From Spirochaetota bacterium (GTDB lineage: Bacteria; Spirochaetota; Brachyspiria; Brachyspirales; JACRPF01): DNA of 64,000 nt. The stretch's first letter is position 1, and each line of letters begins with the position of its first letter. The DNA lies in NCBI GenBank assembly GCA_016214035.1, contig JACRPF010000010.1, forward strand, positions 1 through 64,000. The letters are read 5' to 3'. A program made the translations under genes and the position numbers. The notes under the pieces are model-generated. The model was not told the DNA's origin and did not search any database. It worked only from the letters and a program-made list of their open reading frames with translations. This document shows, piece after piece, positions 46,901-64,000 of this stretch.

Positions 46901-46972
46901 GGTACTCGCGGCTATCGTGTCGGCAAAAGCGGTGACGGCGGCGAGCGCCAGAAGGAGTAGGATTCGTTTCAT
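43964..46972 (-). CDS. fusion of sugar-binding protein and MalF-type ABC permease
   Basis: 1002 residues. A signal peptide (1-18) leads to a complete type-1 solute-binding domain (about 25-560; LRLWNVPSSF, FDEFVRRHPEYRVK, AAWKYIEFMTGPEAQ). A membrane helix (578-602) and a basic cytosolic linker connect it to a MalF-like permease (from about 625; EAA loop QYEAADIDGAGFWKKM, 881-896). A block of about 80 residues with two extra membrane helices (761-842) is inserted just before LQDPNMAMLWVIV. The binding protein is thereby tethered to its own channel. GAGGTG precedes the ATG. No ATPase is encoded next to it. Confidence 0.93.
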   Translation of the reverse strand: MKRILLLLALAAVTAFADTIAASTEEPTELRLWNVPSSFAGSPDWISRRVVFDEFVRRHPEYRVKALVPIKIDANMGSESTEFLSVAGGVAPDVFYLTERKVSDYRTQGFLLSLNKYLSDFEKRTGKKYAGIAAPSSVWELCHSGGNIYTVPYYYAPEVILCHNPTFARNNLAGKRPKNWDELYEFARKMTYDPSKEEKPDPSMPLTYGLMPQYPSAGVGWFYLQMVWAAGGDVVVPYFEKDGKEFEVPVPPVDYRRLGIEVNDEKTYYARVEENKKKLAALGLPAEYSMEAVKWKMHTERPKAMRALDFYRRVIHQPWIRHKGHEFDVTPAMIKQRVAVDPFSGDKFDLTDKKVLNRIYYGVIDMGTSQVGRDVKEKYYGMRFIFLTESGTQDVNADPTEWTIASIPSYEGEALATTIGGHHLGINSTIAAEDKPGRGDADKIREAAWKYIEFMTGPEAQAIKVKVYIDFGVQEQVRPSILKSVGYEDILVRIPKERLEMWEHVDNFGHIIPYPRGFMHVLSREFRNTVDAIANDPIDMVTGEYKKNTTNVMTAMVTRVNDTILGKMPEKEVKRRSVFGWILFALGMAGILGFGAFIVRAMIKAERRRNDEGFGVGGHPGRRRMYAWLFLIPAVATIIIWAYYPLIRGTLMAFQDYKILGGSKYVGMRNFVEVVFQATFWQYLLQTVQYVVLSIGLGFLVPIMLAILLTEIPKGKVLFRTLYYLPAVTTGIVTMFLWKGLLFDTSKQGVINQFMLAFNGWPIGLAVAVKLLICIGFAVIAALCMTQVFNKRNEKLEKSFAGIIGGLIILFIGYLLINTMIREGFGGIFRMFFSAFDFKPQKFLQDPNMAMLWVIVPGIWAHAGAGCLIYLAALKGIPDAQYEAADIDGAGFWKKMVHVTYPNLKALVIINFVGAVVGAMHASQNIFVMTGGGPEDKTTTVGLAIWFNAFLYLDFGMSTAMAWIIGSLLIGFTFNQLRIMNKLQFRSTSVESKTGGGSAGSH

Positions 46973-47007
46973 GGAAGCACCTCGTTTTTCATATCAAGTG
47001 TTACTGC

Positions 47008-47036
47008 AGTATACTGTACTGTGTATCGTCTGTAAA
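47008..47036 (-). promoter_or_regulatory. promoter of the SBP-permease operon
   Basis: Minus strand: TTTACA (47036-47031), 17 bp, TATACT (47013-47008). The -10 box ends 36 bases before the first base of the ATG, as in the glycosidase-like and sulfatase promoters. The 12-mer CTGCAGTATACT (47004-47015) recurs inverted at 50257-50268. Confidence 0.7.
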
Positions 47037-47047
47037 TGCGTGTGATT

Positions 47048-47071
47048 GACATGCCTATGCAAAATTGACTT
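47048..47071 (-). promoter_or_regulatory. weak copy of the glycan-regulon element
   Basis: It begins 35 bp upstream of the -10 box of the transporter promoter. It shares the TxTGxAxAATTGxC core (13 of 24 positions) with the element at 53279-53302. The position is exact, but the match is modest. Confidence 0.35.
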
Positions 47072-47076
47072 TCGTG

Positions 47077-47781
47077 CTATTTCGAGAGCGCTGCGACATC
47101 GTCGGCGGTAATGGCTTTCTTATAAAAGCGGACCTCGTCGACAAGTCCGGAAAAGTTCTGCCAGCCGCTGCCGATGGACAGCGGACGGTCTTTTGTCGCA
47201 ACCACACCGGCGAAGTCCTTCGGTATGTCGCCTTCGCCGTCAACGATGCCGTTGATGTAGAACTTCATCTTCATGTTTTCACGGTCGAATACCACCGCGA
47301 TATGCGACCATGCGTTGATCGCGATTTTTTTCTTTGCGCTCACGCCGGATGAGCCTTTACTGCCATCCTCGTTCTTGTAGCCGATGGAGAAGTTGGGGAC
47401 GCCGTCGGTGTTAACATCCACGACAGCGTATATCGCCGGCCATTGGTCGATGCCGAACATACGGCGGCGTTTTTCTTTTGCGTCGATATCGAGCGTTGAC
47501 GGATTAACCCACATGGCGACGGAGAAGCTCGATGTGCCCGGCTGTTTATCCGTCGGCACTTTGAAGTTCAATGCTCCGGCAGGGGTGCCGTTGAGTTTAA
47601 CCGCTCCGCCCACTTTGCCCGGGGCGAATGTGACCGCGCCGGTGGCGTTATACGCATTGCCGGAAACATCTTTTACCGTTGTACCTTCAGATTCATCGCA
47701 CGGCCAGTAGCCGATGAGGCCTTCCTCGGCGAATACGGGGAGTGTGATGCACAGGGCGATGAAAAGGAAAAGATGCTTCAT
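47077..47781 (-). CDS. exported LamG/concanavalin-like domain protein
   Basis: 234 residues. A signal peptide (HLFLFIALCITLPVFAEEG) is followed by a single laminin-G-like jelly roll: LIGYWPCDESEGTTVKDVSG, GGAVKLNG, FSVAMWVNP, WSHIAVVFDRENMKMKFYING, GLVDEVRFYKKAI. Such domains bind polysaccharides. It lies between the glycosidase-like gene and the transporter operon and has its own promoter. AAGGAG precedes the ATG. Confidence 0.88.
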   Translation of the reverse strand: MKHLFLFIALCITLPVFAEEGLIGYWPCDESEGTTVKDVSGNAYNATGAVTFAPGKVGGAVKLNGTPAGALNFKVPTDKQPGTSSFSVAMWVNPSTLDIDAKEKRRRMFGIDQWPAIYAVVDVNTDGVPNFSIGYKNEDGSKGSSGVSAKKKIAINAWSHIAVVFDRENMKMKFYINGIVDGEGDIPKDFAGVVATKDRPLSIGSGWQNFSGLVDEVRFYKKAITADDVAALSK

Positions 47782-47807
47782 ATAGAACTCCTTATAGCGA
47801 TGCTTCC

Positions 47808-47845
47808 ATGGGGTACATTATATACTTTATCCCCATAGACCGCAA
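47808..47845 (-). promoter_or_regulatory. promoter of the LamG gene, flanked by an inverted repeat
   Basis: Minus strand: TTGCGG (47845-47840), 17 bp, TATAAT (47822-47817). ATGGGG (47808-47813) and CCCCAT (47831-47836) flank the -10 box as a 6-bp inverted repeat with a 17-bp spacer, a possible operator. Confidence 0.55.
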
Positions 47846-47884
47846 TACATAAATTGGAAATTATATGCACTTTTTGGAAAGACG

Positions 47885-50221
47885 TCAGTCTGCCACGCGT
47901 TCAAGACGAACATCATCAATCCAGATATCGGTTGCGGGGTCGACACCGCCGAGGTCGAACTGCACCAGCGCTTCGAACGTGTCTCCGCTGTTTTCACCGG
48001 TGAGGCGATACAATGACGGCTGTTCACCGATTGCCATTTCGCGCATCCCGACGACCTTATGAGGCGGCTCTGCGCCCTGCAATCCCACACGGCATTTTAC
48101 CGGTGATGATGCCGCCGCGCGGAATGTCAGTACATATTCTTTCTGCGCCTCTGCGGTGAATTGCTGCGTCAGTCTGAGATGGTACACGGCGCCCGTTTTT
48201 TCATTTACAGTAAGTTTCATCGAATTTTTGCCGGAGATTTTTGCGGCTGCATCAATATCAGCCAGCAGCGCCTTATCGCTTCCTTTGCCCGGCCAGATGA
48301 CTTTTTTCCAGCCGTTCATACCGTCATCGAATTCGCCGTTCTGTATCAGATTGAGCGGGCGGCTGCGCCTGATGAAATGTGCCGATGCGATTGCGGATGA
48401 CGCGTTCCGGGTGAACGCACGGGCGCGTACGGTGGCCGTGTCCGTGAGAACCATCGGTTTCTGATATAACGCTGAACGTTCCGTCGGTTCCGTACCGTCA
48501 AGCGTATATCGTACGGCGGCGCCTGCCGTTGCGCATCCGATAGTCAATGTCATAGCGTCATAGAAACGCATGTCGTCACCGATAAAGTTGGGCTGCCAGA
48601 CACCACCGGCGGCATCTGCGGCAGGTTCAACAACAAGTATGACGTTCGGAGACAGCGCGGGAACTGCAATGTCAGTCCGGTACGGTTCGCAGACGGTCAC
48701 GGAGCGGACTAATGTACCGTAATCTTTAACGGTAAACGCACGGTCATGCGCCTGTTTTTCGTACGGAAGCGGTGTGCACATGCGTACCCGGAACGGCCGC
48801 TCGCCGAAGAATGACTGCGGATTCAGACTTAGCGAAAACGGCGCCGGCTCTTTTTTAGTATCGATGAGGTGAATCACCGCCGGTGCCGTTTGTTTTCCGG
48901 GAATGGCGCGTATGAACGCAGCGATGCCTTTTGTGTTTCCTGAAATCACCAGTGCGGGCGCGTTTTTCCATCGACGGTCATCAAGATTTCCTCCGGTGAC
49001 AAATGCATCCTCATAACCGTCAAGATATCCTGACATTCCGCGGATAAATGCGAACTGATCTGCATATGATGCGGGAGCGCCGAAAAAACGGTCGCCTTTC
49101 GGTGTGGGAAGGTAGGTGTCCCACGGCGCTTCAATGTGGCCGCCGACGGCGTAGACAAGCGCGATGGTGCGCCGTATCAGCGCAATGTAATCGGCCGTTT
49201 CATTGGTATCGCTGCGCAGCGGCATGGTAACCGTCTGGCTCCGGTTAAAATCCGAGGCGCGTTTCATCGCCGCGTAGAGATATTCGGGTGTGGCGTCAGA
49301 CGCATTCAGTTCACCGATGCAGAAGTCGAAGCTAAGTTCGATATCGCCCCAGTCGCGAACGCCGTTGTTGCATGAGACGGAGACGCTGCGGCCGGCATGT
49401 CTGTTGAGTTCGGTACGCCACCATCGGTTGAACGCTATCGTAGACGCTATCTGGAAGGCTTCAAACTGCGAGCGTAGATAATCGGCGGGGCCTTTCATGA
49501 AATCGTCGCCTTCAGGCGCATTTTTTGATTTTAGATAGGCACGATAATCAAATGACGTAAGGTCGATGACGCCGAGTTCTCTGAGCTTTGCGGCATCGGC
49601 ATGTGTCTGAAGATAGGTGCGAAACCCGTTCATGCAATGCTCACAGAAACAGCCGCCCCAGCGAAGTGCATGTTTGCTCTGTGCCGGTTCATCACGCTGA
49701 AGACCGTCGGCTCCGGCGTCGACGGTGGCGATGACGAACCTCAGATGGCCGGCGCGGAATTCGGGATTGTTCGGGCAACCCCACGGATTGGGTTTTTTCC
49801 ATGCGCGCATCCATGTCGCATACACCGGTTTGCCGTTGATATCGACGACGTTCCATTGTTCGCTCGGCACGCTTCCTTTGTAGTTGCCGGCGGATGCCGC
49901 TCCGCCGAACCATACGCCGAGTGCATGAACTTTATCAATGAAACTTTTATTCTCGGTGTATGTCCATTCCAGCCGTGTGATATGAAATCCCTTGATGGCG
50001 GCGATGGAATCGTACGGGTCTGCACTGTTCCTCGGGTGCGGCATGAGATTACGCATGACAACGTCGCTCGCTTTCGGTGCCCCGGGAGGCAGCTCTCTCG
50101 CCTTTGCGATATCAGAAAGCCGTACATCCAGTGCGGCGGCGGGAAGCAGCGCACATGTCGATAGTGCAATGGCTGCGAGTATTGTCCGCAGGCGGCCGGA
50201 TGTATGATGTGCTGTTGTCAT
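47885..50221 (-). CDS. exported glycoside-hydrolase-like protein with CHB/HEX-type and CBM domains
   Basis: 778 residues, signal peptide 1-30. Residues about 55-400 look like a TIM barrel of the GH42-like kind: DGLQRDEPAQ, the CFCEHCMNGFRTYL block and YLKSKNAPEGDDF. A beta domain follows (about 400-545). Residues 550-612 match the chitobiase/beta-hexosaminidase C-terminal repeat (AVRYTLDGTEPT). Residues 624-775 are a CBM4/9-like jelly roll (NLIQNGEFDDGMNGWKK). The specific family and substrate are not certain. GGAGG precedes the ATG at 50221. It is divergent from an AraC regulator and upstream of the LamG and importer genes. Confidence 0.8.
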   Translation of the reverse strand: MTTAHHTSGRLRTILAAIALSTCALLPAAALDVRLSDIAKARELPPGAPKASDVVMRNLMPHPRNSADPYDSIAAIKGFHITRLEWTYTENKSFIDKVHALGVWFGGAASAGNYKGSVPSEQWNVVDINGKPVYATWMRAWKKPNPWGCPNNPEFRAGHLRFVIATVDAGADGLQRDEPAQSKHALRWGGCFCEHCMNGFRTYLQTHADAAKLRELGVIDLTSFDYRAYLKSKNAPEGDDFMKGPADYLRSQFEAFQIASTIAFNRWWRTELNRHAGRSVSVSCNNGVRDWGDIELSFDFCIGELNASDATPEYLYAAMKRASDFNRSQTVTMPLRSDTNETADYIALIRRTIALVYAVGGHIEAPWDTYLPTPKGDRFFGAPASYADQFAFIRGMSGYLDGYEDAFVTGGNLDDRRWKNAPALVISGNTKGIAAFIRAIPGKQTAPAVIHLIDTKKEPAPFSLSLNPQSFFGERPFRVRMCTPLPYEKQAHDRAFTVKDYGTLVRSVTVCEPYRTDIAVPALSPNVILVVEPAADAAGGVWQPNFIGDDMRFYDAMTLTIGCATAGAAVRYTLDGTEPTERSALYQKPMVLTDTATVRARAFTRNASSAIASAHFIRRSRPLNLIQNGEFDDGMNGWKKVIWPGKGSDKALLADIDAAAKISGKNSMKLTVNEKTGAVYHLRLTQQFTAEAQKEYVLTFRAAASSPVKCRVGLQGAEPPHKVVGMREMAIGEQPSLYRLTGENSGDTFEALVQFDLGGVDPATDIWIDDVRLERVAD

Positions 50222-50256
50222 GGTAATGCCTCCGGGATACGAATAACGATATGGTA

Positions 50257-50285
50257 AGTATACTGCAGGTACGCACGGGGTGCAA
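50257..50285 (-). promoter_or_regulatory. promoter of the glycosidase-like gene
   Basis: Minus strand: TTGCAC (50285-50280), 17 bp, TATACT (50262-50257). The -10 box ends 36 bases before the ATG. The -35 context CGCATTT(G/A)CA is shared with the transporter promoter. Confidence 0.7.
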
Positions 50286-50296
50286 ATGCGAAAAAA

Positions 50297-50318
50297 CGGA
50301 CATTGACAAAAATATCCG
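50297..50318 (-). promoter_or_regulatory. glycan-regulon element, copy 1
   Basis: On the minus strand it begins CGGATATTTTTGT, identical over 13 bases to copy 2 (53279), and ends CAATGTCCG. CGGA and TCCG at the ends are inverted. It begins 35 bp upstream of the glycosidase-like gene's -10 box and contains the -35 box of the divergent AraC gene, so it could serve both. Confidence 0.6.
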
Positions 50319-50330
50319 GCCACGTAGGAT
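50303..50330 (+). promoter_or_regulatory. promoter of the araC-type gene at 50340
   Basis: TTGACA (50303-50308), 16 bp, TAGGAT (50325-50330). The -10 box is 9 bases from the ATG, so the transcript is probably leaderless. Confidence 0.65.
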
Positions 50331-50339
50331 GTCGGGATA

Positions 50340-51170
50340 ATGGCTATGAATACCCAACAGTACAACAGTATTGTATATGACGCGGTGCGCCGGTGCGGTG
50401 CGATAACCGTCGGCGGCAGAACGGCGGTGATACTCAATTTTCTTCTTACCGAGGATGCTCCCGGTACACGGATTGCGCAGCATCGTCATGCGCATTGCGA
50501 GATTGGTACCGTCACGGCGGGTGAGGTCGTCTATACCATCGGCGGTAAGCGCTATCGGGTATGTGCCGGAGAGACCATCATCATCCCGCCGAATACAGCG
50601 CACATAAGAACTTGCCCCAAGCGATGCCGCATTTACGGATATTGGATATTTGCCGGGGCGTCGTTCCGTGAAGATGTACCCAAGGTGGTAACTGTGCCGG
50701 ATGCACAACGTTTCATCAGCGCTGTCGCCGGCGAGATTGAACGGTGCGGCAGCGGCTATGAATATTCGGTTGCGCATTACCTGTCGCTGCTCTTAATCGA
50801 TATACTGCGGCAGTATCCCGAAGCGGAAAAGACCGATGCGGCACAATCACGTGAGCTCAGCCGCATGCGCGACGCCGTCAGATATATCAATGAACATATA
50901 CGGGGAGATCTTTCGTCGGCGGCGATTTCGCGGGCGGTGGGGATATCATCGCGGCATTTGAACCGGTTGTTCAGGCATGCGGCGCGGGTGACCCTGCATC
51001 GCTACATCCACGATACGAAAATGCTTGCGGCATATATCGATCTTATGCGCGATAAAACCGTCACGGTGCGGGAGATAGCCGGACGCGTCGGCTGTACCGA
51101 CATCAGCTATTTTGCAAAATGCATGCGCGCGTTTTCCGGAAGGACACCGTCGGCGATACGGAACAGCTGA
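50340..51170 (+). CDS. AraC-family transcriptional regulator
   Basis: 276 residues: a cupin sensor with HRHAHCEIGTVTAGEVVYTI and PPNTAHI, then two HTHs (SSAAISRAVGISSRHLNRLF; VREIAGRVGCTDISYFAKCM). A second ATG lies at 50346. It is divergent from the glycosidase-like gene across 118 bases that hold both promoters and a shared element, making it the prime candidate regulator of this locus. It ends 7 bases from the convergent sulfatase. Confidence 0.92.
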   Translation: MAMNTQQYNSIVYDAVRRCGAITVGGRTAVILNFLLTEDAPGTRIAQHRHAHCEIGTVTAGEVVYTIGGKRYRVCAGETIIIPPNTAHIRTCPKRCRIYGYWIFAGASFREDVPKVVTVPDAQRFISAVAGEIERCGSGYEYSVAHYLSLLLIDILRQYPEAEKTDAAQSRELSRMRDAVRYINEHIRGDLSSAAISRAVGISSRHLNRLFRHAARVTLHRYIHDTKMLAAYIDLMRDKTVTVREIAGRVGCTDISYFAKCMRAFSGRTPSAIRNS

Positions 51171-51177
51171 GCGTTTT

Positions 51178-53202
51178 TCAGATCAGTTCTGCGCGGACAT
51201 CGGCGAACAGTATCGTCTGCGGTTTGGTGCCGATATGGCATGTCAGCACAGCCCCGCCCGGTTTAAACGATTCCTTCATCACCGCGGTAAGTTCGATCTT
51301 TTTCCAGGATGCATCGGCTTTTACCGCTGCGTCGGCGAGTTTGGTATACGGCGCTCCGTTCTTCTGGAATATCGCATTGAACTCGCCGCCACCATCACTC
51401 CTGCAGTAAAACGATATGCGGTACTTTTTTTCAGGTTCAAGCGTGAGCATTATCATCCGCTTGTATGCGGCATCCGATATTTTCTCCGGTTTCGCGGCTA
51501 CGGTGACCTCATGCGCCTCTGCGAACGGCTGACCCTCAACGGTAACGGTTTTACAGACGCAGAACTTGCCGTCCCCGTTCAGCAGCACGGGACCAACGCC
51601 GTGTGTGACTGCATCCGCCGCGGTCTTGCCGTATTCTCTGGTATGCTGTGCGACATTCATCTTTTTGAAAAACGCTTCGAACCGGTCGACGATGGGTTTG
51701 TACTCGGTGTTCTGTGATTGGCTCACCGTTTCCAATGGGTCGTTCTGATAATCATAGAGTTCATTCGCCACAAGCAGCCCCGCACGCGCACCTTTGCGGT
51801 AATCCATCTGCAGCCATTTGACATACCGGTATCGTTCATCGCGGAGCGTATAGCCCATCACCGGTTTGTTGTCGATGGTCCTCGGGTATTGAGACAGTAT
51901 GGCATCACGGACAGCGGCTTTCGGATTGTCCATAACAGGCGCAAGGCTTTTTCCATGCAGATGTGCAGGGACGGCGAGACCCGCGAGGTCACAGAGCGTG
52001 GGAAACACATCCACGAAACCGGTGGGGGAATTCGTTTTATTCCCTTTTGGTTTTCCCGGGGCGGTGATGATGAGCGGCGCGCGTGCTGCATTCTCAAAAT
52101 TGGAATGCTTGCACCAGAGGCCGTGGTCACCCAGGTGCCATCCATGATCGCCCCAGAGACAAACGATGGTGTTGTCGGCAATGCCGAGGTCGTCGAGTTT
52201 TTTCAGGAGCTTGCCGATCTGCGCATCGACATACGACACGCAGGCGCGGTAGCCGTGAATGAGTTCCAGCTGCATTTCAGCGGTCAGCTCGCCCACATCG
52301 GGGATATCGCTGAATGAGCGGAGCTCTCCTGACGTATGATAGGCTATCTCCGGACTGTTCTTCGCCTTTTCCTGGAACGGATGTATCTTTATCTTTGACC
52401 GGTCGTACATATCCCAGTACTTTTTCGGCGCGATGAACGGCAGATGCGGTTTCTGAAATCCCACCGAGAGGAAAAACGGTTTTCCCGCGGACGATAATGT
52501 TTCAAGCTGCCGGCATCCCGCTTCCGCAAGCGCGCCGTCATAGTAGGCATTATCTGGGACATCGGTGCATTCGGTTGCCGGAGACGCCAATGGTCCCGCT
52601 ATTTTCGCAAGCGCGGCGGTTTTGGCGCTACCGCTTTTAAACTTCTGTCCTTTGAGCGCCTCATTGCCCTTTTTCATCGCTTCAATAGTTTCCGGGTTCC
52701 GGTATCCGCCGACGGTAGGCCCGAGAGTCTGATCGACCATTACTTTTTCGGTTCCGTAGGGAATCGACCACGACGGCTCATCCGCCTTATTATCCACGCA
52801 GCGGTAATCGTATGTCTTGCCGATACCGGTGGTCTCATATCCCTGTGATATCAGATACTGCGGCAGCGCGAGTATGTCGGGATTCACATCGCGCATGCGT
52901 GTTTCCAGATCCCAGACGCCGGTGTGGTCCGGATACATGCCGGTCATGAGACTCGCCCGTGTGGGACCGCAGACGGCCTGCTGACAGCAATTGTTGAGAA
53001 ACACCGTGCCGCGTGCGGCGAGTCTGTCGATGTTCGGCGTAAGGATGTCATTGTCGCCATAGCATCCCATCAGCGGTTTAAGGTCGTCAACCGGTATCAT
53101 GAGTATGTTCGGCTTTTTGCCCGATGTCTGTGAAAAGAGCCGGGACGCAAGCGCGCCCGCGGTGATTGCCGCAGCTGTTGAAAGAAATGACCGACGATCC
53201 AT
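51178..53202 (-). CDS. exported sulfatase, iduronate-2-sulfatase-like
   Basis: 674 residues. A twin-arginine-like signal (DRRSFLSTAAAITAGALAS) precedes the sulfatase core: ILMIPVDDLKPLMGCYGD with metal ligands Asp39/Asp40, and the formylglycine motif CGPTRASLMTG at Cys78 (CxPxR, cysteine type). LWGDHGWHLGDHGLW is typical of the iduronate-2-sulfatase-like branch. Residues about 530-674 form an added beta domain, possibly carbohydrate-binding. Activation needs a formylglycine-generating enzyme or anSME, which this window lacks. Confidence 0.93.
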   Translation of the reverse strand: MDRRSFLSTAAAITAGALASRLFSQTSGKKPNILMIPVDDLKPLMGCYGDNDILTPNIDRLAARGTVFLNNCCQQAVCGPTRASLMTGMYPDHTGVWDLETRMRDVNPDILALPQYLISQGYETTGIGKTYDYRCVDNKADEPSWSIPYGTEKVMVDQTLGPTVGGYRNPETIEAMKKGNEALKGQKFKSGSAKTAALAKIAGPLASPATECTDVPDNAYYDGALAEAGCRQLETLSSAGKPFFLSVGFQKPHLPFIAPKKYWDMYDRSKIKIHPFQEKAKNSPEIAYHTSGELRSFSDIPDVGELTAEMQLELIHGYRACVSYVDAQIGKLLKKLDDLGIADNTIVCLWGDHGWHLGDHGLWCKHSNFENAARAPLIITAPGKPKGNKTNSPTGFVDVFPTLCDLAGLAVPAHLHGKSLAPVMDNPKAAVRDAILSQYPRTIDNKPVMGYTLRDERYRYVKWLQMDYRKGARAGLLVANELYDYQNDPLETVSQSQNTEYKPIVDRFEAFFKKMNVAQHTREYGKTAADAVTHGVGPVLLNGDGKFCVCKTVTVEGQPFAEAHEVTVAAKPEKISDAAYKRMIMLTLEPEKKYRISFYCRSDGGGEFNAIFQKNGAPYTKLADAAVKADASWKKIELTAVMKESFKPGGAVLTCHIGTKPQTILFADVRAELI

Positions 53203-53237
53203 ATGCCGATCCTCCGTAGGATGAAACTCTTATATAC

Positions 53238-53266
53238 AGTATACGGTATTTTTAACTGAATTTGAA
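53238..53266 (-). promoter_or_regulatory. promoter of the sulfatase gene at 53202
   Basis: Minus strand: poor -35 TTCAAA (53266-53261), 17 bp, TATACT (53243-53238). The -10 box ends 36 bases before the ATG. A weak -35 with an element just upstream fits an activator-dependent promoter. Confidence 0.6.
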
Positions 53267-53278
53267 ATGGAAAATCAT

Positions 53279-53302
53279 CGGATATTTTTGTACAATTGTC
53301 GG
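53279..53302. promoter_or_regulatory. glycan-regulon element, copy 2
   Basis: On the plus strand it reads CGGATATTTTTGT followed by ACAATTGTCGG. It begins 36 bp upstream of the sulfatase -10 box. It matches the copy at 63612-63635 at 20 of 24 positions. Confidence 0.62.
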
Positions 53303-53358
53303 CAGAATACGAAGGTATATATTCCGGTAAATGGCAGTCGCGTGTGCGGGCTTTTTTA

Positions 53359-55101: not shown

Positions 55102-55300
55102 TCTATACTCCTCGTTTTCTACCCGGGTCGTATACGTTGCAATTGAACGGGATGCATCCGAAAAATATCGCGATGTATTGCCGCGGACGATATCCGGTAT
55201 TAATCACATTCTTGAAGACAAATATACCGTTGTACGACCATCCGGGGAATAGTCTTCATTGACAAAAAGGTGGACTATATTGTGTATAGAGGATTACGCG

Positions 55301-57745
55301 CTATTCCAATCCCCATTTCTTTTTGAGGTACATTTGTACGGTCATTTTTTCCGTAGGCGACAGACTCCGGTCATAGAGCAGTATCTCGGCGATGTCGCCG
55401 TTGAAACACTGCGTTATCTTGTCTTTGATTTCAGCCTGGCCTCCGATAACAACTGCTTCAAGACTTCTGCCGATAACGGCACTTGAGAAGAATAATCGCG
55501 CGGGAAATGGCTGCGGTTTCTGAGCGTCAGGGCGCATCAGTGAACAGTTCGGCGGCTGATAATCGTGCATCGTGCCGTTCCATGTTGAGAATAAACGCTG
55601 CCATTGGCCACCGGTGCCGTCGGAACGCGCGACGACGAAGAGTGTGTAGCCGCCTGTTTCTGTGCGGAACGTACCGGCCCGCACAGCGGATGTGCCGTCG
55701 AAGCGGACAAAGAAATGTCCGTTCCATCCGGATTCTCTGGTGATGCCGTCCGTTCCTGTGAGAGAACGTTCATCACCGGCGGTACGGCTTTTCCATGTTC
55801 TTATGGTTGTTCCAAAACCCATCTCGAACGAATCGGTATGATCTCCGTCCAGCCAGAGACGTAATCCCGATGTGGGGAATCCGCCGGCGCCCGGACTATA
55901 TGATAGATCCATCGGTTTTATTCCCGGTATATCGGTCTTCCACCACGATGCACCCGGCCGCCACGGTTTACCGCCCGATTGCATTGCGCCTACATCACGC
56001 GGCTGTCCACTGAACGTTGGAAACTCATCGAGCGGGAATGCGGCTGCAATGGCGGCTGAACCGCTGACAGGAACTCCTGCGGCGTCAACGGCTGCGTCAA
56101 AATTGGACCTGAGCAGCGGACCGCGTTCTCCCTGTACGAAGGTAGACGGATCTTTCTGTTCATAAGGCGTTATTACATTGTTGTTGACGATACGTGTTCC
56201 CAGCATGGTCGGTATGCGGCCGGTATAGGTGAATGTAGCAAAGGCACGGTTGACATTTTTTATCGTATTGAAGGCGACGAGATTGTTCAGTGAATCGCTG
56301 TTGAGACGTATGGCGTCGCCGTTGATGTTCCAGATGATATTATGATGCATATAAAAGTTGCTGCAGAAATTGTCAAGGTAAATGCCCGCAGCCGCTTCGC
56401 CGAGGCAGTCATGCACCCAGTTCGATGCGATGATGGAACCGCCGCCATCGGTGCCCCATGCGTAAGTGGCGCCCGAGTCATTGTTGAGCATGGTGGCGAG
56501 GAAAATATCACAGCCGGTGATGCGAAGGCCGCGCGCTTTGTGATGTAGGACGATGTCGCGGCCTGTCCGGTACAGCGTGCAGGCGTCTATCGTCGTGTTC
56601 GTCGTCCCTGAGACGTTCACGCCGCCGTAATATCCGCCGCAGTAATCGAGGTCGTGCATCACGCATTGCAGAATGCGGTTGTCGTTTCCCCGCACGGTGA
56701 TGCCGGGACCGGCCGCGTAGGCAAGGCGTACGTGGTCCAGTGCAGTGCCGTCGCCCTGTACGCTGCAGCCGCCGGAAAAACTGCCGTTGGGCATAAGACT
56801 GTCCGGATACAGTATTTCACAGGATGAAAGTCTGTTGTCATTTCCTTTCAGCTGAACACCGCCCGCGAAAAAAACAAACCCGGTGAACGATATATGATCG
56901 GCGGTGATGTCGAGTGCCAGAGGCCGACGGCGTATCTCTATGCTGCCGCGCTGCGGAGTTTTGCCGTCGGGCGGTATGAGCGAGAGCAATCGTTCCTGAG
57001 TATTGAAGAACCATTCTCCCGGAGCATCAAGCCCCGCTGCACTGTTGTAAAGATAATAGGGATTTCCTGCCACAGGCCGGTGTACGTCCACGGTGCCGTG
57101 GTACGCATCTCCCTTCGAACGCTGGAACGGGGGATCGAACCGCAGCGAAGTGCCCGGTTGATATCCTGTTGTCTTCGGTGTCTTTGAATACCAGCGATGC
57201 CCCGGCCAGATGAACACCGTTGCGCCGTCCCAGTTGCCGGGAGGCAGATTCGTGTCGACGAGTATGTCGTAATCCGTTCCCTGTCCGGCCGTCGCCCAGG
57301 AACGGTTCATGAGATCGTTGAGCGGAGCATTGGGACAACGGGCGAGGTACAGCATTGTTGTTCCGGAGAAGACCTGCGTGACAGGTCCGTCGACATCCGT
57401 TTGATACACGCCGCTTTCCTTCGCGGTCCAGCCTGAGGTCACTTCATCAAGGCCGGTAATGACAACATTGCCGCCGTCTGTTGTAAAGGTGATGAGGTTT
57501 TCATCAGCACCCGACGTCCTTATGGTCACCGTTTCACGGTATGTCCCCGCGCGGACGATGCAGCGGTCGCCGGCTTTCATGAGGTCAGCCGCTTTCTGGA
57601 TGGTCAATAATGGTTTGTCCCTGGTGCCGTTATTGCCGTCACTGCCGTTCGTCGCAACGTGGTATTCAGCGGCGGCGGCAGAAACAGTAATCATTGCAGC
57701 TATAACTATGAGTAGGCGCATGTATTGTCTGAGCACAGGTGACAT
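55301..57745 (-). CDS. exported right-handed beta-helix protein with C-terminal LamG-like domain
   Basis: 814 residues. The signal peptide ends near VSAAAAEYHV. The start of the mature protein (ATNGSDGNNGTRDKPLLTIQ, then GDRCIVRAGTYRETV) is typical of DUF1565/pectate-lyase-like beta helices. Helix coils continue to about 560 (ITVRGNDNRILQCVMHD, VNVSGTTNTTIDACTLY). Residues about 620-810 form a concanavalin-like fold (LRLWLDGDHT, ... FNGDIAEILLYDRSL). It may be a polysaccharide lyase or epimerase; the catalytic residues are not obvious. AAGGA precedes the ATG. It lies 51 bases behind the M14 gene. Confidence 0.85.
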   Translation of the reverse strand: MSPVLRQYMRLLIVIAAMITVSAAAAEYHVATNGSDGNNGTRDKPLLTIQKAADLMKAGDRCIVRAGTYRETVTIRTSGADENLITFTTDGGNVVITGLDEVTSGWTAKESGVYQTDVDGPVTQVFSGTTMLYLARCPNAPLNDLMNRSWATAGQGTDYDILVDTNLPPGNWDGATVFIWPGHRWYSKTPKTTGYQPGTSLRFDPPFQRSKGDAYHGTVDVHRPVAGNPYYLYNSAAGLDAPGEWFFNTQERLLSLIPPDGKTPQRGSIEIRRRPLALDITADHISFTGFVFFAGGVQLKGNDNRLSSCEILYPDSLMPNGSFSGGCSVQGDGTALDHVRLAYAAGPGITVRGNDNRILQCVMHDLDYCGGYYGGVNVSGTTNTTIDACTLYRTGRDIVLHHKARGLRITGCDIFLATMLNNDSGATYAWGTDGGGSIIASNWVHDCLGEAAAGIYLDNFCSNFYMHHNIIWNINGDAIRLNSDSLNNLVAFNTIKNVNRAFATFTYTGRIPTMLGTRIVNNNVITPYEQKDPSTFVQGERGPLLRSNFDAAVDAAGVPVSGSAAIAAAFPLDEFPTFSGQPRDVGAMQSGGKPWRPGASWWKTDIPGIKPMDLSYSPGAGGFPTSGLRLWLDGDHTDSFEMGFGTTIRTWKSRTAGDERSLTGTDGITRESGWNGHFFVRFDGTSAVRAGTFRTETGGYTLFVVARSDGTGGQWQRLFSTWNGTMHDYQPPNCSLMRPDAQKPQPFPARLFFSSAVIGRSLEAVVIGGQAEIKDKITQCFNGDIAEILLYDRSLSPTEKMTVQMYLKKKWGLE

Positions 57746-57752
57746 ATCAATT

Positions 57753-57779
57753 CCTTATACGGTCATAGACAGTATAAGG
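57753..57779 (-). promoter_or_regulatory. inverted repeat over the -10 box of the beta-helix gene
   Basis: CCTTATAC (57753-57760) and GTATAAGG (57772-57779) are perfect 8-bp arms around an 11-bp spacer. The right arm contains the minus-strand TATACT-like -10 sequence (57776-57771). This could be an operator distinct from the 24-bp regulon element. Confidence 0.5.
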
Positions 57780-57796
57780 CATATCATGCCCATCCG

Positions 57797-58927
57797 TCAA
57801 CGAACTGCGGCGAGTACGGCCTCAGCGATAAGCGTTCCGGCATGACGGTAATCAGGTATGGTCATTATTTTGTTTCCGGCCATATAATAACTTGTTTCAA
57901 ATGATATGGCGGGAATATGCAGGTCATTTTCAGCATGTTCGGTTGCGTTCTGATGCTGTCCCCATACATCAAATGGTTTATAATCGGCGTGCCGTTCAAA
58001 ATCAGTGCTGCCGAACGGTATGAGTCTGCTCTTCAATTCATTTATGAGCGGTGCTAACAGCGGAAAATGTTCCGCCGCGGTTTTTGATGTGAAACAATAG
58101 ATGTCTTTTTCTCCCATCGACGGACTGTGAAAATCGAGGAACAGCGCCGGTGCACATCGGTCTTTCCAGATATTCTGGTCCGCCATGAACAGTTTTGTCT
58201 CATGACGCATCGGCGCGCGCGGATCCCATGCGCGGTTAAGGTCATGCGGATACGGATTTTTGCCGTAGTCGCCGGCGAGAATGCCGTCGATATTGGTGAG
58301 CGGTACGCACCAGATGAGCGGCGCTTCAGCACCGGCATTTGCCATGCGGCGTAAAAATCCATCAAGCACCCATGAGCCGCTTACTTCCGCCGAATGCTGA
58401 CGTGCCGTTATATATATGCCGGGCGTAGTACTGTTCTTTTCACCGTAGCTGTTACTGAGTCGTTTGATCGCATTTCCGTTCTGGCTTACGCCGATTTCAT
58501 TATTGTTCCAGAAGCCGTGACAATCACCGATCAGCGTGTCGATTTCAGCTTCGCCGTACGGATAACACCAGGCGATCTCGGCATAGGTTCCGGGAGTGGC
58601 AATATTCCAAAAGAGAGAACGATGACCGTCAGTACGCATTACTTCGGTACCGGCTGATAAGCGCGTCCATTCCCCGCCGTCATATCTGATCACCGGTATA
58701 CCGTCCCGCGAATTGCCGAGCATGCTGGTAACGTGTTTCATCTCAATGCGTGTCTCAGCCGGAAGCGTCTCCGGTGACGGATTGTCTATCCGGAAACAGA
58801 ACCATAATCGTTCGATGCCTCCATGTGCTGCAGCGGCGAATCGTACCACATTGACTGCCGCTTCGGTCACGGTTTCTACAGCGCAGACATTTCCATACGG
58901 TATCCGGTCGGTTATCTGTAATTGCAT
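57797..58927 (-). CDS. M14-family zinc carboxypeptidase-like protein
   Basis: 376 residues, no signal peptide. The zinc ligands are His178 and Glu181 (ARQHSAEVSGSW) and His267 (LDFHSPS). The substrate-binding DLNRAWD has Arg232, and the general base is Glu344 (ISFETSYYM). The N-terminal 150 residues are a beta domain like that found before the catalytic part of cytosolic carboxypeptidases. AGGAG precedes the ATG. The substrate might be a peptide, an amide or an amino-acylated glycan. Its place among glycan genes is unusual. Confidence 0.88.
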   Translation of the reverse strand: MQLQITDRIPYGNVCAVETVTEAAVNVVRFAAAAHGGIERLWFCFRIDNPSPETLPAETRIEMKHVTSMLGNSRDGIPVIRYDGGEWTRLSAGTEVMRTDGHRSLFWNIATPGTYAEIAWCYPYGEAEIDTLIGDCHGFWNNNEIGVSQNGNAIKRLSNSYGEKNSTTPGIYITARQHSAEVSGSWVLDGFLRRMANAGAEAPLIWCVPLTNIDGILAGDYGKNPYPHDLNRAWDPRAPMRHETKLFMADQNIWKDRCAPALFLDFHSPSMGEKDIYCFTSKTAAEHFPLLAPLINELKSRLIPFGSTDFERHADYKPFDVWGQHQNATEHAENDLHIPAISFETSYYMAGNKIMTIPDYRHAGTLIAEAVLAAVR

Positions 58928-59083
58928 CGGCCATGCTCCTGATGGCGCCTTCGGCTTGAGGCCATCGGCGACGGGTATTTGCCGCTTTCGCGGTATGGTG
59001 ATATACTATACACAGGACGCCGGAATTGAATCGTACGATACCGTCATAAATAGTAATTTTCTGCTCTCCTGCCGGATGAGATA

Positions 59084-59944
59084 ATGGAAAAGAAAAGCGA
59101 ACAGGATATCATTGCACACGAACTGGCGATGCTCATTCGGGATGAATCACTCGTATTTCACTGCAGTCATAAAAAAAAAGCTGCGCCGGATGCCTCGTTC
59201 TATATTCCCGGTTTTCCTCACATCGAGATAGTCCGGAAGGGTGTGCTGCCGCTGACGTTCCCCGCCGCACACGGCGATGAAAACGTAACGCTCTGCCGCG
59301 GCGGCGTGCTGTATATTATCCCGGGCTCCGGGGTGATGCGCGATATGGATACCGAACGCAAGCTCCTGGCGATCAATCTGCATCGTGACGGCATCGAATG
59401 CTACCGGTCGCGCCGGTTGTCCGCGGATAAACTCGGCAGTCCGCGCGTCTCGTATCATACCGCGCGCCCGCTCAATGTAGGCGGCATGCATACGCTTCGT
59501 GCCATCGAATATTTTTTCATCGCCGGTCAACGGCCGGAACTGCTTCCGCTGTTTCAAAGCTTTCTCATGACTATACGCTCCATGATAACGGATGACCGTG
59601 CGGATCCGCAGACGCGTGCTCATGCGACATACAAGATGATAATGCATTACATGCGGGAGAAGTGTACCGATGCAATAGGCCGCGGAACTGCGGCTGAAGA
59701 GTTCGGACTGTCACCGGATTATATCACACACCTGTTTGCGAAATACGGCGACCGCGGGTTCAATGATGTTTTGACGGAGCTGCGGTTGGAACAGGCTGAA
59801 CGGTATCTCAGACAAGGCAGGTATCCGGTGAATCGTGTGGGGGAACTCTGCGGCTTTGAGGATGCCGGGTATTTCATCAAGGTGTTCAGACGATATTACG
59901 GCATGACGCCGGGCAGTTTTATGGACAGGCTGACGGGGAAGTGA
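59084..59944 (+). CDS. AraC-family transcriptional regulator
   Basis: 286 residues. The N-terminal sensor is not strongly conserved. The C-terminal HTHs are recognisable (GRGTAAEEFGLSPDYITHLF; NRVGELCGFEDAGYFIKVFR, then YYGMTPGSF). It is divergent from the M14 gene across 156 bases. The plus-strand -10 box is unclear; TATACT at 59002-59007 is about 75 bases upstream. Confidence 0.9.
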   Translation: MEKKSEQDIIAHELAMLIRDESLVFHCSHKKKAAPDASFYIPGFPHIEIVRKGVLPLTFPAAHGDENVTLCRGGVLYIIPGSGVMRDMDTERKLLAINLHRDGIECYRSRRLSADKLGSPRVSYHTARPLNVGGMHTLRAIEYFFIAGQRPELLPLFQSFLMTIRSMITDDRADPQTRAHATYKMIMHYMREKCTDAIGRGTAAEEFGLSPDYITHLFAKYGDRGFNDVLTELRLEQAERYLRQGRYPVNRVGELCGFEDAGYFIKVFRRYYGMTPGSFMDRLTGK

Positions 59945-59985
59945 TTATTTTGCCCCTGCCGGGAAACGAGTTATCGAACAGAATA

Positions 59986-61026
59986 TCATTGTATCTTTTC
60001 CATAGCGTCACCGAGCTTTGCCGCAAAATGAGCCGCTCCGGCGACATTGAGATGAACCGCATCGTTAAGCCCGTCGGCATCGGTGAAGGCGGGCCCTTCA
60101 ATGCAGTACATACCGGTGCCGCCTTTGGCCGTTTCGTCGGCAACAACACGGCGCACAGCCTCGCGATACATCTCAAGCGTGACATTCGTTTTGGTTTTAT
60201 TTCCGCTTGCGGTTGTCGTTGAAAACGTCGGTGTAATGCAGAAAATCTGCGCCTTCGGATGATCGTTTCGCAGTGCGGAGAGTATGCGATGATAACTCTT
60301 CTCATACGACTCGACTGAATTGATCCCGTTCATGTCATTATATCCGATGAGTATGGTTACGACATCAACCTGTTTATTGCTGATCATGGCTGCAACAGCC
60401 GGTGAGATCTGTCCGCCGCCGACCGCAAGATTAAACAGCTCCCAGCCGAACCGCCGTGCGATCTGAAACGCATAGGTCTCTGCCGTCATTGTCTGGCCGG
60501 TGCCGTGCGTGATCGAGTCGCCGATGGCGATATAGCATTTTCGATGAAGCATCTTTTTCGGAAGCAGCTCACCGGAAATATCAAGTCCGCCGAAAACCGG
60601 ATTCGCCCAGTTCGGCATCACAATCTCATACTGCGCAGCACCGGCGGCTGTCGGAATAGACAGTGAAAACGGCGAACCTGCTGTTCCGCCCACAAGATTG
60701 GTGACGAATACCGTATCACGGTAAACGCTGAACCGGCTCACGCCTCTGCCTGCGGTTGGAAACAGAAACTTCGCAGTGACAGCACTGGCGTCGGCGTTAA
60801 AGCGTATCACAATGCCGGTGGTGGTAAGCGCCCTGTCATTGTTAAATGTCTTGTCTTTGCTCGCGAGTGTCGCGGCATCAAAGCGCGGCATGGTCATATA
60901 GCCGTTTGACATTGAGGGGAAATAGACACCGTCATAGGCGATACGGGAATCATCCGGGGCAATTGTTTCTGCGGTAAGGACTCTGCATACGCATAAAAGC
61001 GAAATCATGATTGAAATTTTTGTCAT
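59986..61026 (-). CDS. exported SGNH/GDSL hydrolase
   Basis: 346 residues with a signal peptide (SIMISLLCVCRVLTAE). An N-terminal beta domain (about 25-165) precedes the SGNH core: YIAIGDSITHGTGQT, AVGGGQI, IGYNDMNG and DAVHLNVAGAAHFA. This is the domain order of acetylxylan-esterase-like CE2/SGNH enzymes. The ATG at 61026 has GGAG upstream; a GTG at 61044 is also in frame. It lies 14 bases behind the GH5 gene and is probably a sugar deacetylase. Confidence 0.87.
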   Translation of the reverse strand: MTKISIMISLLCVCRVLTAETIAPDDSRIAYDGVYFPSMSNGYMTMPRFDAATLASKDKTFNNDRALTTTGIVIRFNADASAVTAKFLFPTAGRGVSRFSVYRDTVFVTNLVGGTAGSPFSLSIPTAAGAAQYEIVMPNWANPVFGGLDISGELLPKKMLHRKCYIAIGDSITHGTGQTMTAETYAFQIARRFGWELFNLAVGGGQISPAVAAMISNKQVDVVTILIGYNDMNGINSVESYEKSYHRILSALRNDHPKAQIFCITPTFSTTTASGNKTKTNVTLEMYREAVRRVVADETAKGGTGMYCIEGPAFTDADGLNDAVHLNVAGAAHFAAKLGDAMEKIQ

Positions 61027-61040
61027 TAGCTTTACTCCAC

Positions 61041-62045
61041 TCACTTCCCCAGAGATTCGAAAATCGGCGTGTTCATCTTCACCAGCTGGCCCTTTACCAG
61101 TTTGCCCGATTCGGTCAGTTCCTCATCCGTCCAGCCGGAGAGCTTGTTCAGATTGGGGATGAGTATCGAGGCTGTCTCTGCCTTGTCGGCCACCGACCAG
61201 TTGCAGTAGCTGATATGGTTTGCCTCGAGGAATTCGTACCAGGCGGCCGTCTCGGCGGGATCGAACTTTCCATTTCCCGAGGAGCCGCAGGTGCCATATT
61301 CGGTGACAAAAACAGGGATACCCGCGGCGAGGGCCCGGGCGGTTTGGTCCCGCAGGGACTGTTTATGTGTGCCCGCGTAGAAGTGCATGGTGTAGGCGAT
61401 GTTTGGCCCGGCGAGAGGATCTGCGGCAGCCTCGTCGACGCGCTGTGACCATGTCCGTGTGCCGACGATGATGAGGTTGGATGGATCGTTCCTGCGGATC
61501 GCCGGGATCACAGTTTCTGCGTAGGGCTTGATGATGGTGCTCCACTGTACGTCCTGGGGTTCATTGAAGAGCTCGTAGATCACGTTGGGATACGCGCCGA
61601 ATTCCTTCGAGACCTGATCGAAAAACGCCAGCGCGTTCTCGGTTTCCTTGTGGGCATTGTGGCTGTGAAAATCGATTATTACATAGATGCCGGTATCAAC
61701 GCACGCCTTGATGACGGCCCGAAGCGCGGCCATTGTCTTCTCCGGCGCGCCGTTGAAGCCGTCTTTCGAGCCCGTAGCCATAGCCGCGCGTACGACCGTG
61801 CACTTCCAATCATCCCTGAGCCAGCGCACGGTCTCGGCCGTGTAGAACTTTCCCATCCATTGGCTCCAGAACAGTGACATGCCGCGCAGCACCACGGGCT
61901 CTCCCCGGGCATCGCATACCTTATTGCCGACCGTGCAGAGCCGACCGTACTTCTCCACGACGGTTGTCGGTCCCGCCCCGAAGGACGGCAGTGCTGTGAA
62001 GAGCAGGCCCATGCCCATTATCTGCAAAACAGCCGTACATTTCAT
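61041..62045 (-). CDS. GH5 endoglucanase
   Basis: 334 residues, signal peptide 1-23. Closest in pattern to the Cel5A-type (GH5 subfamily 2) cellulases: NVIYELFNEPQ with acid/base Glu162, IIVGTRTWSQRVDEAA, YTMHFYAGTHKQSLRD, and nucleophile Glu249 in VFVTEYGTCGSSGNG. No separate binding module. By eye it uses more GCC/CTC/GAG codons than neighbouring genes, which may point to recent acquisition. GGAG precedes the ATG. It lies in a sulfatase-GH5-SGNH operon. Confidence 0.94.
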   Translation of the reverse strand: MKCTAVLQIMGMGLLFTALPSFGAGPTTVVEKYGRLCTVGNKVCDARGEPVVLRGMSLFWSQWMGKFYTAETVRWLRDDWKCTVVRAAMATGSKDGFNGAPEKTMAALRAVIKACVDTGIYVIIDFHSHNAHKETENALAFFDQVSKEFGAYPNVIYELFNEPQDVQWSTIIKPYAETVIPAIRRNDPSNLIIVGTRTWSQRVDEAAADPLAGPNIAYTMHFYAGTHKQSLRDQTARALAAGIPVFVTEYGTCGSSGNGKFDPAETAAWYEFLEANHISYCNWSVADKAETASILIPNLNKLSGWTDEELTESGKLVKGQLVKMNTPIFESLGK

Positions 62046-62081
62046 ATAGTGATCTCCGGTGTATTGAGGATATAACGAATA

Positions 62082-63539
62082 CTATTCTATCTTCATCGGC
62101 GGGAATCCGCGCGGGTCATCATTGTGCGGAACAACATCCGCCGTATGAATATACCAGTCAAGCATGCGTTTTTCAAGTGCCGACCGCGCCGATTCGTACG
62201 CGGGATCGTCGTGACGGTTATTTAGCTCCTGCGGATCGTTCGTGAGGTCATAGAGTTCGGATATACCGTTCGGTCGGCGTATCAGTTTATATTCCATCGT
62301 CCGTATCATCGTTGCGCGGCAGACGCTTTCGGGGTGTTCCTGCTGCTGCAAGGCCTTGGGGTAATAGATGTTCGTTTTGGTGCGTAAACCCTGGTCGGTC
62401 CCGGGGCGTCCCTCGAAACAGTTCGGTTCGTGAGTGTCATATCCGCCCTCGGCGAACACGGCACGTTCTTTGTCTCCCGCAGCACCGTTCAGCTGCGGTA
62501 CGAGCGACTGCGCAAAATGCGTATGTTCCGCTTTCACACCGGCGAGGTCCATTATCGTCGCCATCATGTCAAACATCTCCACCTGTTCTTTGACGACATG
62601 TCCGGCCTTGTTGCCCGGCACTTTTGCCACGAACGGCACGCGTGTGAGCACATCCTCTAGGCCCGACGGCCATTTCTCAACAAGACCGTAATCGCCGGCA
62701 TAGTCGCCATGGTCGGAGAAAAAGAAGGTTGCCGTGTCCTTGTCGAGCCCGGTGTCGGCGAGCGTCTGCATCAGTTCGCCGAGCATATGGTCAACGACGC
62801 CTATCATGCCGAGGTAGACTGCGTTGATCTTACGGAGCATCGCTTCATCAATCTCGCCGAGACGACGGTACTGCCGGATGAGCGCATGGAAGTCAGGTTT
62901 TCCAGGCATATCCTTCGGACGCAGCGGCGGGAGTTTTTCAGGTTCGATGAGGTCATGCCACTTTCCCGGTGCCCAGTACGGGCAGTGCGGGAACGATATC
63001 GGCAGAAAAATGACAAACGGTTTTGCCGGTTTTGACTTCAGGAACTGAATCGCGCCGTCTACGCTGCGAAAGTCGTGCAGCTCTTCGATCTCCGATGCAC
63101 CGGGTTTGTGGAGGAATGAATAATAGCGCGGGTCATCGATGCCGTATTCCTGCATGCCGCCCTTGCCGGGCTTGTACCGCGTCGACCGTGCGCCCAGGTT
63201 CCAGTCGGTAACGCTGTCGAATGTGCTTTCCGGTGAGAGCATGTCGTTCTTACCGCCGATGAGTACGTCGTAGCCTGCGTTTTTCATATAGCGCAGCAGG
63301 TTCGGTTCATCGGGGCGAAGCGAATGCCAGAGCGTCCGATGGCCGCGTACATGCGGATACCAGCCGGTCATGAAGCTTGCCCGGGACGGCGTACAGACGG
63401 TATGCTGTACGTGGCACTGGTCGAAACGCACGCCCTCCGACGCAAGACGGTCGAGATTGGGTGTCGGTGCCAGCGGATGTCCGTAACAGCCGGCGCTTTC
63501 CGCGCGACACTCGTCGGGGTTGAAGATGATAAAGTTCAT
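62082..63539 (-). CDS. sulfatase (cysteine type), no signal peptide
   Basis: 485 residues. It begins directly at the sulfatase core (NFIIFNPDECRAESAGCYGH), so it is likely cytosolic. The formylglycine motif is CTPSRASFMTG (Cys49). FFFSDHGDYAGDYGLVEKW gives the second metal-site block. It resembles sulfatases common in glycan-degrading PVC and Bacteroidetes genomes. AAGGA precedes the ATG. First gene of the operon with GH5 and SGNH; divergent from a partial AraC gene. Confidence 0.94.
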   Translation of the reverse strand: MNFIIFNPDECRAESAGCYGHPLAPTPNLDRLASEGVRFDQCHVQHTVCTPSRASFMTGWYPHVRGHRTLWHSLRPDEPNLLRYMKNAGYDVLIGGKNDMLSPESTFDSVTDWNLGARSTRYKPGKGGMQEYGIDDPRYYSFLHKPGASEIEELHDFRSVDGAIQFLKSKPAKPFVIFLPISFPHCPYWAPGKWHDLIEPEKLPPLRPKDMPGKPDFHALIRQYRRLGEIDEAMLRKINAVYLGMIGVVDHMLGELMQTLADTGLDKDTATFFFSDHGDYAGDYGLVEKWPSGLEDVLTRVPFVAKVPGNKAGHVVKEQVEMFDMMATIMDLAGVKAEHTHFAQSLVPQLNGAAGDKERAVFAEGGYDTHEPNCFEGRPGTDQGLRTKTNIYYPKALQQQEHPESVCRATMIRTMEYKLIRRPNGISELYDLTNDPQELNNRHDDPAYESARSALEKRMLDWYIHTADVVPHNDDPRGFPPMKIE

Positions 63540-63571
63540 ACTATGGAATCCTTGGGGTGACTATTACAATA

Positions 63572-63600
63572 ATAATACGATAAAACCATACTTTATTGTA
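63572..63600 (-). promoter_or_regulatory. promoter of the sulfatase gene at 63539
   Basis: Minus strand: weak -35 TACAAT (63600-63595), 17 bp, TATTAT (63577-63572). The -10 box ends 33 bases before the ATG. Confidence 0.5.
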
Positions 63601-63629
63601 TGGCAATATTTCTGATAAATTTGTATAAT
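63601..63629 (+). promoter_or_regulatory. promoter of the partial araC-type gene
   Basis: TATAAT (63624-63629) lies 8 bases before the ATG at 63638, with a poor -35 (TGGCAA, 63601-63606) 17 bp upstream. Probably a leaderless transcript. Confidence 0.5.
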
Positions 63630-63635
63630 TGTCGG
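63612..63635. promoter_or_regulatory. glycan-regulon element, copy 3
   Basis: Plus strand: CTGATAAATTTGT followed by ATAATTGTCGG. It begins 35 bp upstream of the sulfatase -10 box and covers the -10 of the divergent AraC gene, suggesting joint control. Confidence 0.62.
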
Positions 63636-63637
63636 AT

Positions 63638-64000
63638 ATGAAATCATTCAGGCATGTTTACGGGCTTGAGCCCGGAAAGAAAAACGAACGGTTCCGCGCG
63701 CAGGTAGCCGGATTTCGCTGGGCATTTGAGCGGCCGTCGCTGTATCCGCAGGGGATGAACGCGTGGTCGTTCATCCATTCGTATGAACCCATTACGGTGC
63801 ATACCCCGGATGGCGCGGTATCGTCGGACGGACATGCAGTGATGATATTCCCGCCGGGATTGATAATGCATATGACAGCGGCTGCGAGCCGGACACGGCA
63901 GACGTGGCTGCGTGTCGTTGGTACTTCCGTGCCGCTCTGGATACGCGAGAATGGACTGAACACCTATGAAGCCATGCCGATGGGCTCTGCCGATATCAGC
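63638..64000 (+). CDS. N-terminal part of an AraC-type regulator (cut by window end)
   Basis: The frame is open from the ATG at 63638 to the window end (121 residues). WSFIHSYEPITVHTPDG, then FPPGLIMHMTAAA, resembles the cupin sensor half of AraC regulators. The DNA-binding half would lie beyond the window. It is divergent from the sulfatase gene at 63539. The family call rests on the sensor pattern and on the divergent layout also seen at 50340. Confidence 0.6.
   Translation, partial: MKSFRHVYGLEPGKKNERFRAQVAGFRWAFERPSLYPQGMNAWSFIHSYEPITVHTPDGAVSSDGHAVMIFPPGLIMHMTAAASRTRQTWLRVVGTSVPLWIRENGLNTYEAMPMGSADIS

Follow-up and report, generated by a model that had tools for sequence, protein, structure and literature searches.

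Three types of predicted AraC/XylS-type tandem operators at importer, glycosidase and sulfatase promoters of a Spirochaetota bacterium

Introduction

The AraC proteins form one of the largest families of regulators and, to our knowledge, operators are known for few of them outside model species. The 64,000-nucleotide stretch of a Spirochaetota genome analyzed here (the window) raises the question of how four minus-strand genes, encoding an importer, a glycosidase-like protein and two sulfatases, are controlled. A preliminary description of the window proposed that a single AraC activator acts on all four promoters through one shared 24-bp element, forming a single glycan regulon. We followed up this proposal in the genome of the window (G000) and in G001, the one genome of the same family used for comparison, which represents another (sister) genus.

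Results

Core promoters of the four genes

Sequence inspection revealed minus-strand promoters with -10 boxes before all four genes (Table 1). The -35/-10 geometry at the importer agrees with the genome consensus, and the TTTGCA-18-TATACT promoter of the glycosidase is identical in G001. A common promoter build had been proposed from -10 to ATG distances of 36, 36, 36 and 33 bases. The boxes and their spacings do exist; on recounting, 35 (importer), 35 (glycosidase), 35 (sulfatase 1) and 32 (sulfatase 2) bases lie in between. Since TATAMT boxes in G000 peak 26–41 nt upstream of ATG, these distances correspond to the ordinary leader length of the genome, and a leader length common to the four promoters was rejected as a signature.

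The G001 importer is 65% identical to that of the window. The glycosidase-like protein has a chitobiase C-terminal/Fn3-associated domain, and no catalytic match was returned by the Pfam search. A second permease with BPD_transp_1, encoded at 41867–43933 of the window, also partly matches Glyco_hydro_42 (E=5e-5), an odd combination.

Table 1. Genes, core promoters and predicted operator half-sites of the window, with importer-type sites beyond it
Feature	Position	Strand	Remarks
Importer target: fused solute-binding protein / ABC permease	43964..46972	-	Pfam SBP_bac_1; G001 orthologue
Importer core promoter	47008..47036	-	-35 TTTACA (47031-47036), 17 bp, -10 TATACT (47008-47013)
Importer operator, proximal half-site GTCAATCACACGCATTTAC	47032..47050	-	enters -35 box; kept at G001 importer
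Importer operator, distal half-site GTCAATTTTGCATAGGCAT	47051..47069	-	tandem GTCAAT boxes 19 bp apart
Glycosidase target: secreted glycosidase-like protein	47885..50221	-	Pfam; 59% identical orthologue in G001
Glycosidase core promoter	50257..50286	-	-35 TTTGCA (50281-50286), 18 bp, -10 TATACT (50257-50262)
Glycosidase operator, proximal half-site TGTCCGTTTTTTCGCAT	50286..50302	-	kept at G001 orthologue and at G001 C63 sulfatase promoter
Glycosidase operator, distal half-site TGGCCGGATATTTTTGTCA	50304..50322	-	20-bp tandem; aligns to G001 TGTCCGTTTTTTTTCGTCA
araC-50340 promoter	50303..50330	+	-35 TTGACA (50303-50308), 16 bp, TAGGAT (50325-50330)
AraC-50340, AraC family regulator with cupin domain	50340..51170	+	Pfam HTH_18 + cupin
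Sulfatase 1	51178..53202	-	Pfam Sulfatase
Sulfatase-1 core promoter	53238..53266	-	-35 TTCAAA (53261-53266), 17 bp, -10 TATACT (53238-53243)
Sulfatase-1 operator, proximal half-site TATCCGATGATTTTCCA	53268..53284	-	21-bp tandem
Sulfatase-1 operator, distal half-site CTGCCGACAATTGTACA	53289..53305	-	21-bp tandem, 10/17
Sulfatase 2	62082..63539	-	Pfam Sulfatase
Sulfatase-2 core promoter	63572..63600	-	-35 TACAAT (63595-63600), 17 bp, -10 TATTAT (63572-63577)
Sulfatase-2 operator, proximal half-site TATCAGAAATATTGCCA	63601..63617	-	21-bp tandem
Sulfatase-2 operator, distal half-site TATCCGACAATTATACA	63622..63638	-	21-bp tandem, 10/17; other genomic site solely 53281-53301
AraC-63638, AraC family regulator, 267 aa	63638..64000, continuing past the window to C20:64441	+	Pfam HTH_18 E=3.7e-23
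Importer-type sites beyond the window	C4:159038; C10:379954		before beta-helix protein (C4) and LamG/beta-helix protein (C10)

The 24-bp similarity is restricted to the sulfatase promoters

As had been reported, 20 of 24 positions agree between the 24-mers at 53279 and 63612. They form the best pair among all intergenic pairs of the window, and a match of at least 20/24 arose in 2 of 60 dinucleotide shuffles. The similarity is restricted to the two sulfatase promoters: a 21-mer consensus of the pair (up to 3 mismatches) matched just these two sites in G000 and nothing in G001 (10 Mb scanned over the two genomes). A scan of 1.8 Mb with a matrix of the three copies gave no non-coding match of 18 bits or more besides the training sites. 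For the 16-mer AAAAATATCCG core we obtained 85 genome matches vs. 11 with the reversed pattern. Almost all matches at the 30 loci inspected lie within ORFs, and the excess was rejected as a regulon signal and ascribed to coding-sequence composition. The expected enrichment of one element before CAZyme and sulfatase genes was not seen; the core matches coding DNA and G001 does not conserve the shared element, which in part goes against the preliminary description on its own terms.

The copy at 50297 does have CGGATATTTTTGT (13 bp) in common with that at 53279, in opposite orientation relative to its gene. When the glycosidase promoter was aligned between the window and G001 (over 42 bp), the bases resembling the 53279 copy (CGGATA) read CGTTTT in G001, while GTCAATGTCCG-TTTTT-GCATTTGCA was kept. 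The weak copy at 47048 belongs to a different, conserved importer operator, and in the gap between the M14 and AraC genes, where a weak resemblance had been noted, the best internal repeat (8/17) is at background level. One AraC activator on one element would account for the 20/24 match, the 13 bases in common with the glycosidase copy and the similar geometry at the four genes. However, the element occurs genome-wide at the two sulfatases only, its resemblance to the glycosidase promoter lies in non-conserved bases of opposite orientation, and the importer has an operator conserved independently. A single regulon is already disfavored by this divergence of the putative operators, and we regard it as very unlikely.

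Tandem direct repeats end at the -35 boxes

All four promoters carry a tandem direct repeat, with periods of 19 (importer), 20 (glycosidase), 21 and 21 bp (sulfatases), equal to two turns of the helix, and coordinates place the proximal half-site so that it abuts or overlaps the -35 box of the sigma-70 promoter. The single 24-bp element is mostly a misreading, out of register, of the actual unit, a tandem repeat ending at -35. Half-sites in the same orientation about 21 bp apart are a feature expected of AraC/XylS-type tandem operators. Direct repeats with a 21-bp period have been described for AraC regulators (PMC3870299), AraC tandem sites upstream of promoters were interpreted as activator sites (PMC8579813), and XylS binds direct repeats (PMC5481539); as the site layout is the same, we assign the layout in the window to the AraC type. 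In this respect the earlier proposal of AraC-type sites just upstream of -35 probably holds at all four genes, though not as one element or one regulon.

The repeats within the promoters of the window are moderate (9–10/17). In G001 the glycosidase promoter has a plain 20-bp tandem repeat (TGTCCGTTTTTTTTCGTCAA TGTCCGGTTTTTTGCAT) that extends into the -35 TTTGCA, with TATACT 18 bp on, and the operator in the window is a less regular version of it. Conservation in G001 was found for the importer and glycosidase types; the 21-mer scan of G001 found no operator of the sulfatase type. Altogether, the four promoters probably carry AraC/XylS-type tandem activator operators of three types, each serving its own group of genes.

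As the preliminary description had noted, two of these sites overlap promoters of divergent araC genes, namely the glycosidase and sulfatase-2 operators. The former contains the -35 of araC-50340. The distal half-site of the latter overlaps TATAAT 63624–63629, the -10 box of araC-63638, a gene divergent from sulfatase 2 whose near-leaderless start lies 8 nt past this box. The similarity of the sulfatase pair could reflect common descent of the promoter regions or constraint by the araC -10 box, which is part of the element at 63624–63629, rather than co-regulation. A gapped alignment of the two sulfatase gaps (~110 bp) is indeed the top-scoring pair of the window. Yet the 53279 copy, which has no adjoining araC gene, still keeps CCGACAATT-TACA, the two sulfatase genes are only distantly related, and the block that matches best does not extend beyond the operator. 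We therefore consider this alternative unlikely. In direct comparison, the distal half-site of sulfatase 1 matches the 63622–63638 copy at 13/17.

Three proposed local control groups

Sequence comparisons indicate that the four genes are three separate local control groups and not one regulon. Their operators are unrelated: a GTCAAT type at the importer, a TGTCCG type at the glycosidase and the CCGACAATTRTACA type at the sulfatase pair. Only the importer type recurs elsewhere in G000 (C4 and C10). With 25 specified bases and 0–1 mismatch it was found solely on G000 C20, C4 and C10 and at the G001 importer, with 0 matches in the reversed control of the two genomes; nothing comparable was seen at importer-homologue loci of Lentisphaerae, Planctomycetes and Armatimonadetes. 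We also attempted to reach the importer regulator through the AraC gene of the G001 importer operon and rejected this candidate; its best G000 match, on contig C18, is 35% identical.

The glycosidase operator occurs once in G000 and twice in G001. Besides the glycosidase site, G001 has a copy in front of a sulfatase that lies two genes from the orthologue of AraC-50340 (48% identical); this promoter, held out when the matrix was built, scored 34.0 vs. 21.1 for the next site. AraC-50340 is most likely the regulator of the glycosidase operator. Just before the G001 glycosidase promoter (L317:201-650, G001:C151) we observed an araC C-terminal remnant, 65% identical to AraC-50340 over 37 aa, apparently a decayed AraC-50340-like gene.

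For both sulfatases AraC-63638 is the likely regulator. Among the paralogues in the sample, the closest one (54% in the HTH, with the SRAYFI residues of the recognition helix in common) is divergent from a GH16 gene, and the gap between the two contains CCGAACAATTATACA. Part of this match comes from the araC -10 box (shared TATAAT), which confounds the pairing, and for this reason we rate the pairing as no more than likely. Across the sample, AraC proteins with similar HTHs showed no trend towards similar araC upstream regions; consequently, the protein–operator pairings rest on single cases.

A genome-wide class of tandem promoters

For 463 promoters from 1.8 Mb of G000, with genes from a simple purpose-made caller, the 17-base stretch near -35 was compared with stretches of equal length at varying upstream shifts. 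At shift 21, 41 promoters reached at least 10/17 (mean 11.7, sd 3.8 at 30 other shifts) and 13 reached at least 12/17, vs. 0.5 at other shifts. Similarity was highest with the proximal unit ending at -35 (positional peak -21 from the -10 start), and the sulfatase promoters of the window were recovered in this blind scan. In G001, promoters peaked at shifts 20 and 21. Carbohydrate targets accounted for about 10 of 21 strong tandem promoters in a strict count, vs. 1–3 of 20 random control genes. Strong tandem promoters lie mostly before carbohydrate genes, namely SASA, three GFO_IDH_MocA, xylose-isomerase-like, GH42M, sulfatase, aldose epimerase, melibiase and importer genes.

Direct repeats could also bind another class of regulator (GntR/LacI, a response regulator or a DeoR-type protein) or reflect DNA curvature. 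DeoR-type regulators likewise use direct repeats, but of 10–11 bp period (PMC3870299). Against the AraC reading, the repeat at the importer has a period of 19 bp, a GntR-type gene adjoins the importer-type site on C10, and proximity to araC was not significantly enriched (11/22 tandem-21 promoters vs. 135/363 others, P=0.16). On the other hand, G000 encodes at least 150 AraC HTH proteins, and the 463 promoters showed no excess at shifts of 10–11 or 31–32 bp, the signal expected from curvature, so the repeat is not simple A-tract phasing. We judge these explanations together to be quite improbable, and retain AraC-type operators as the preferred reading.

Several further promoters deserve mention. 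Near-perfect 21-bp tandems (15/17 and 14/17) lie upstream of L249:11572 and L170:18111, preceding a URO-D family gene and an unknown gene. Paralogous importers (upstream of L203:8890-11907 on G000 C2, and L207 on G001 C77) have a tandem TGTCG...TTCCAA operator of 21-bp period common to both genomes. Upstream of L156/L157, a long block (CTGATAGTACATG...TATTTTCAATTC) is common to sulfatase promoters of G000 and G001 and may be a further conserved operator.

In the G000 sample, the distribution of TATAMT boxes also has a sharp peak at 6 nt upstream of the start codon, pointing to leaderless mRNAs (e.g., window 63624–63640). A TATAMT box within 5–8 nt of the start was found for 18 of 79 araC vs. 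29 of 720 other genes (one-sided Fisher P ~6e-8).

Discussion

From the layout of the sites, we propose that AraC monomers with bound inducer would line up head to tail on the two half-sites, contact RNA polymerase at -35 and recruit it to sigma-70 promoters with a weak -35 (TTTACA, TTTGCA, TTCAAA, TACAAT). The importer type (GTCAAT-N13-GTCAAT) would act at three sites in G000, the glycosidase type (TGTCCG-T6) would be switched by AraC-50340, and the sulfatase type, common to both sulfatases, by AraC-63638. As the operators contain the -35 of araC-50340 and the -10 of araC-63638, AraC binding should also shut the araC gene. The overlap with the divergent core promoters suggests autoregulation of both genes, in which bound AraC would limit its own synthesis. 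Binding, activation, the pairing of the latter two types with their proteins and autorepression are all predictions from the DNA.

In Escherichia coli, AraC binds araI1-I2 at pBAD as a direct repeat about 21 bp apart with the proximal half at -35, and the araC gene is divergent and autorepressed. The ~21-bp repeat and the -35 placement are alike here, and two of the four promoters are divergent from an araC gene; unlike in araBAD, one regulator sits 10 kb from one of its proposed targets. L-rhamnose AraC regulators of Bacteroides, Bacillales and Enterococcus likewise use a 21-bp direct repeat upstream of sugar genes, with regulator-specific motifs sharing this one design; their operator sequences differ from ours, and here the predicted targets are sulfatases, importer and glycosidase (PMC3870299). 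XylS at Pm of Pseudomonas putida is also an activator on direct repeats near the polymerase site, two of 15 bp with A and B boxes; the boxes there (TGCA/GGTA) differ from those of the window, as does the signal (PMC5481539). Caldicellulosiruptor bescii, an unrelated organism with far fewer AraC genes, has local AraC activators of sugar regulons with tandem-repeat sites before promoters (PMC8579813).

The tandem AraC-operator design is already known, and this genome has unusually many such activators. We only tentatively suggest that nearly every glycan operon may have a private 19–21 bp tandem operator, and that leaderless or near-leaderless araC genes, with promoters covered by these operators, could act as self-limiting local switches. 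For the locus itself, a plausible one-regulon model is corrected and replaced by three specific, predicted regulator–operator groups. More broadly, the self-similarity of promoters is enough to make the operator class visible when no motif is given beforehand, and in a genome encoding at least 150 AraC regulators it could point to their targets and to candidate sites of binding.
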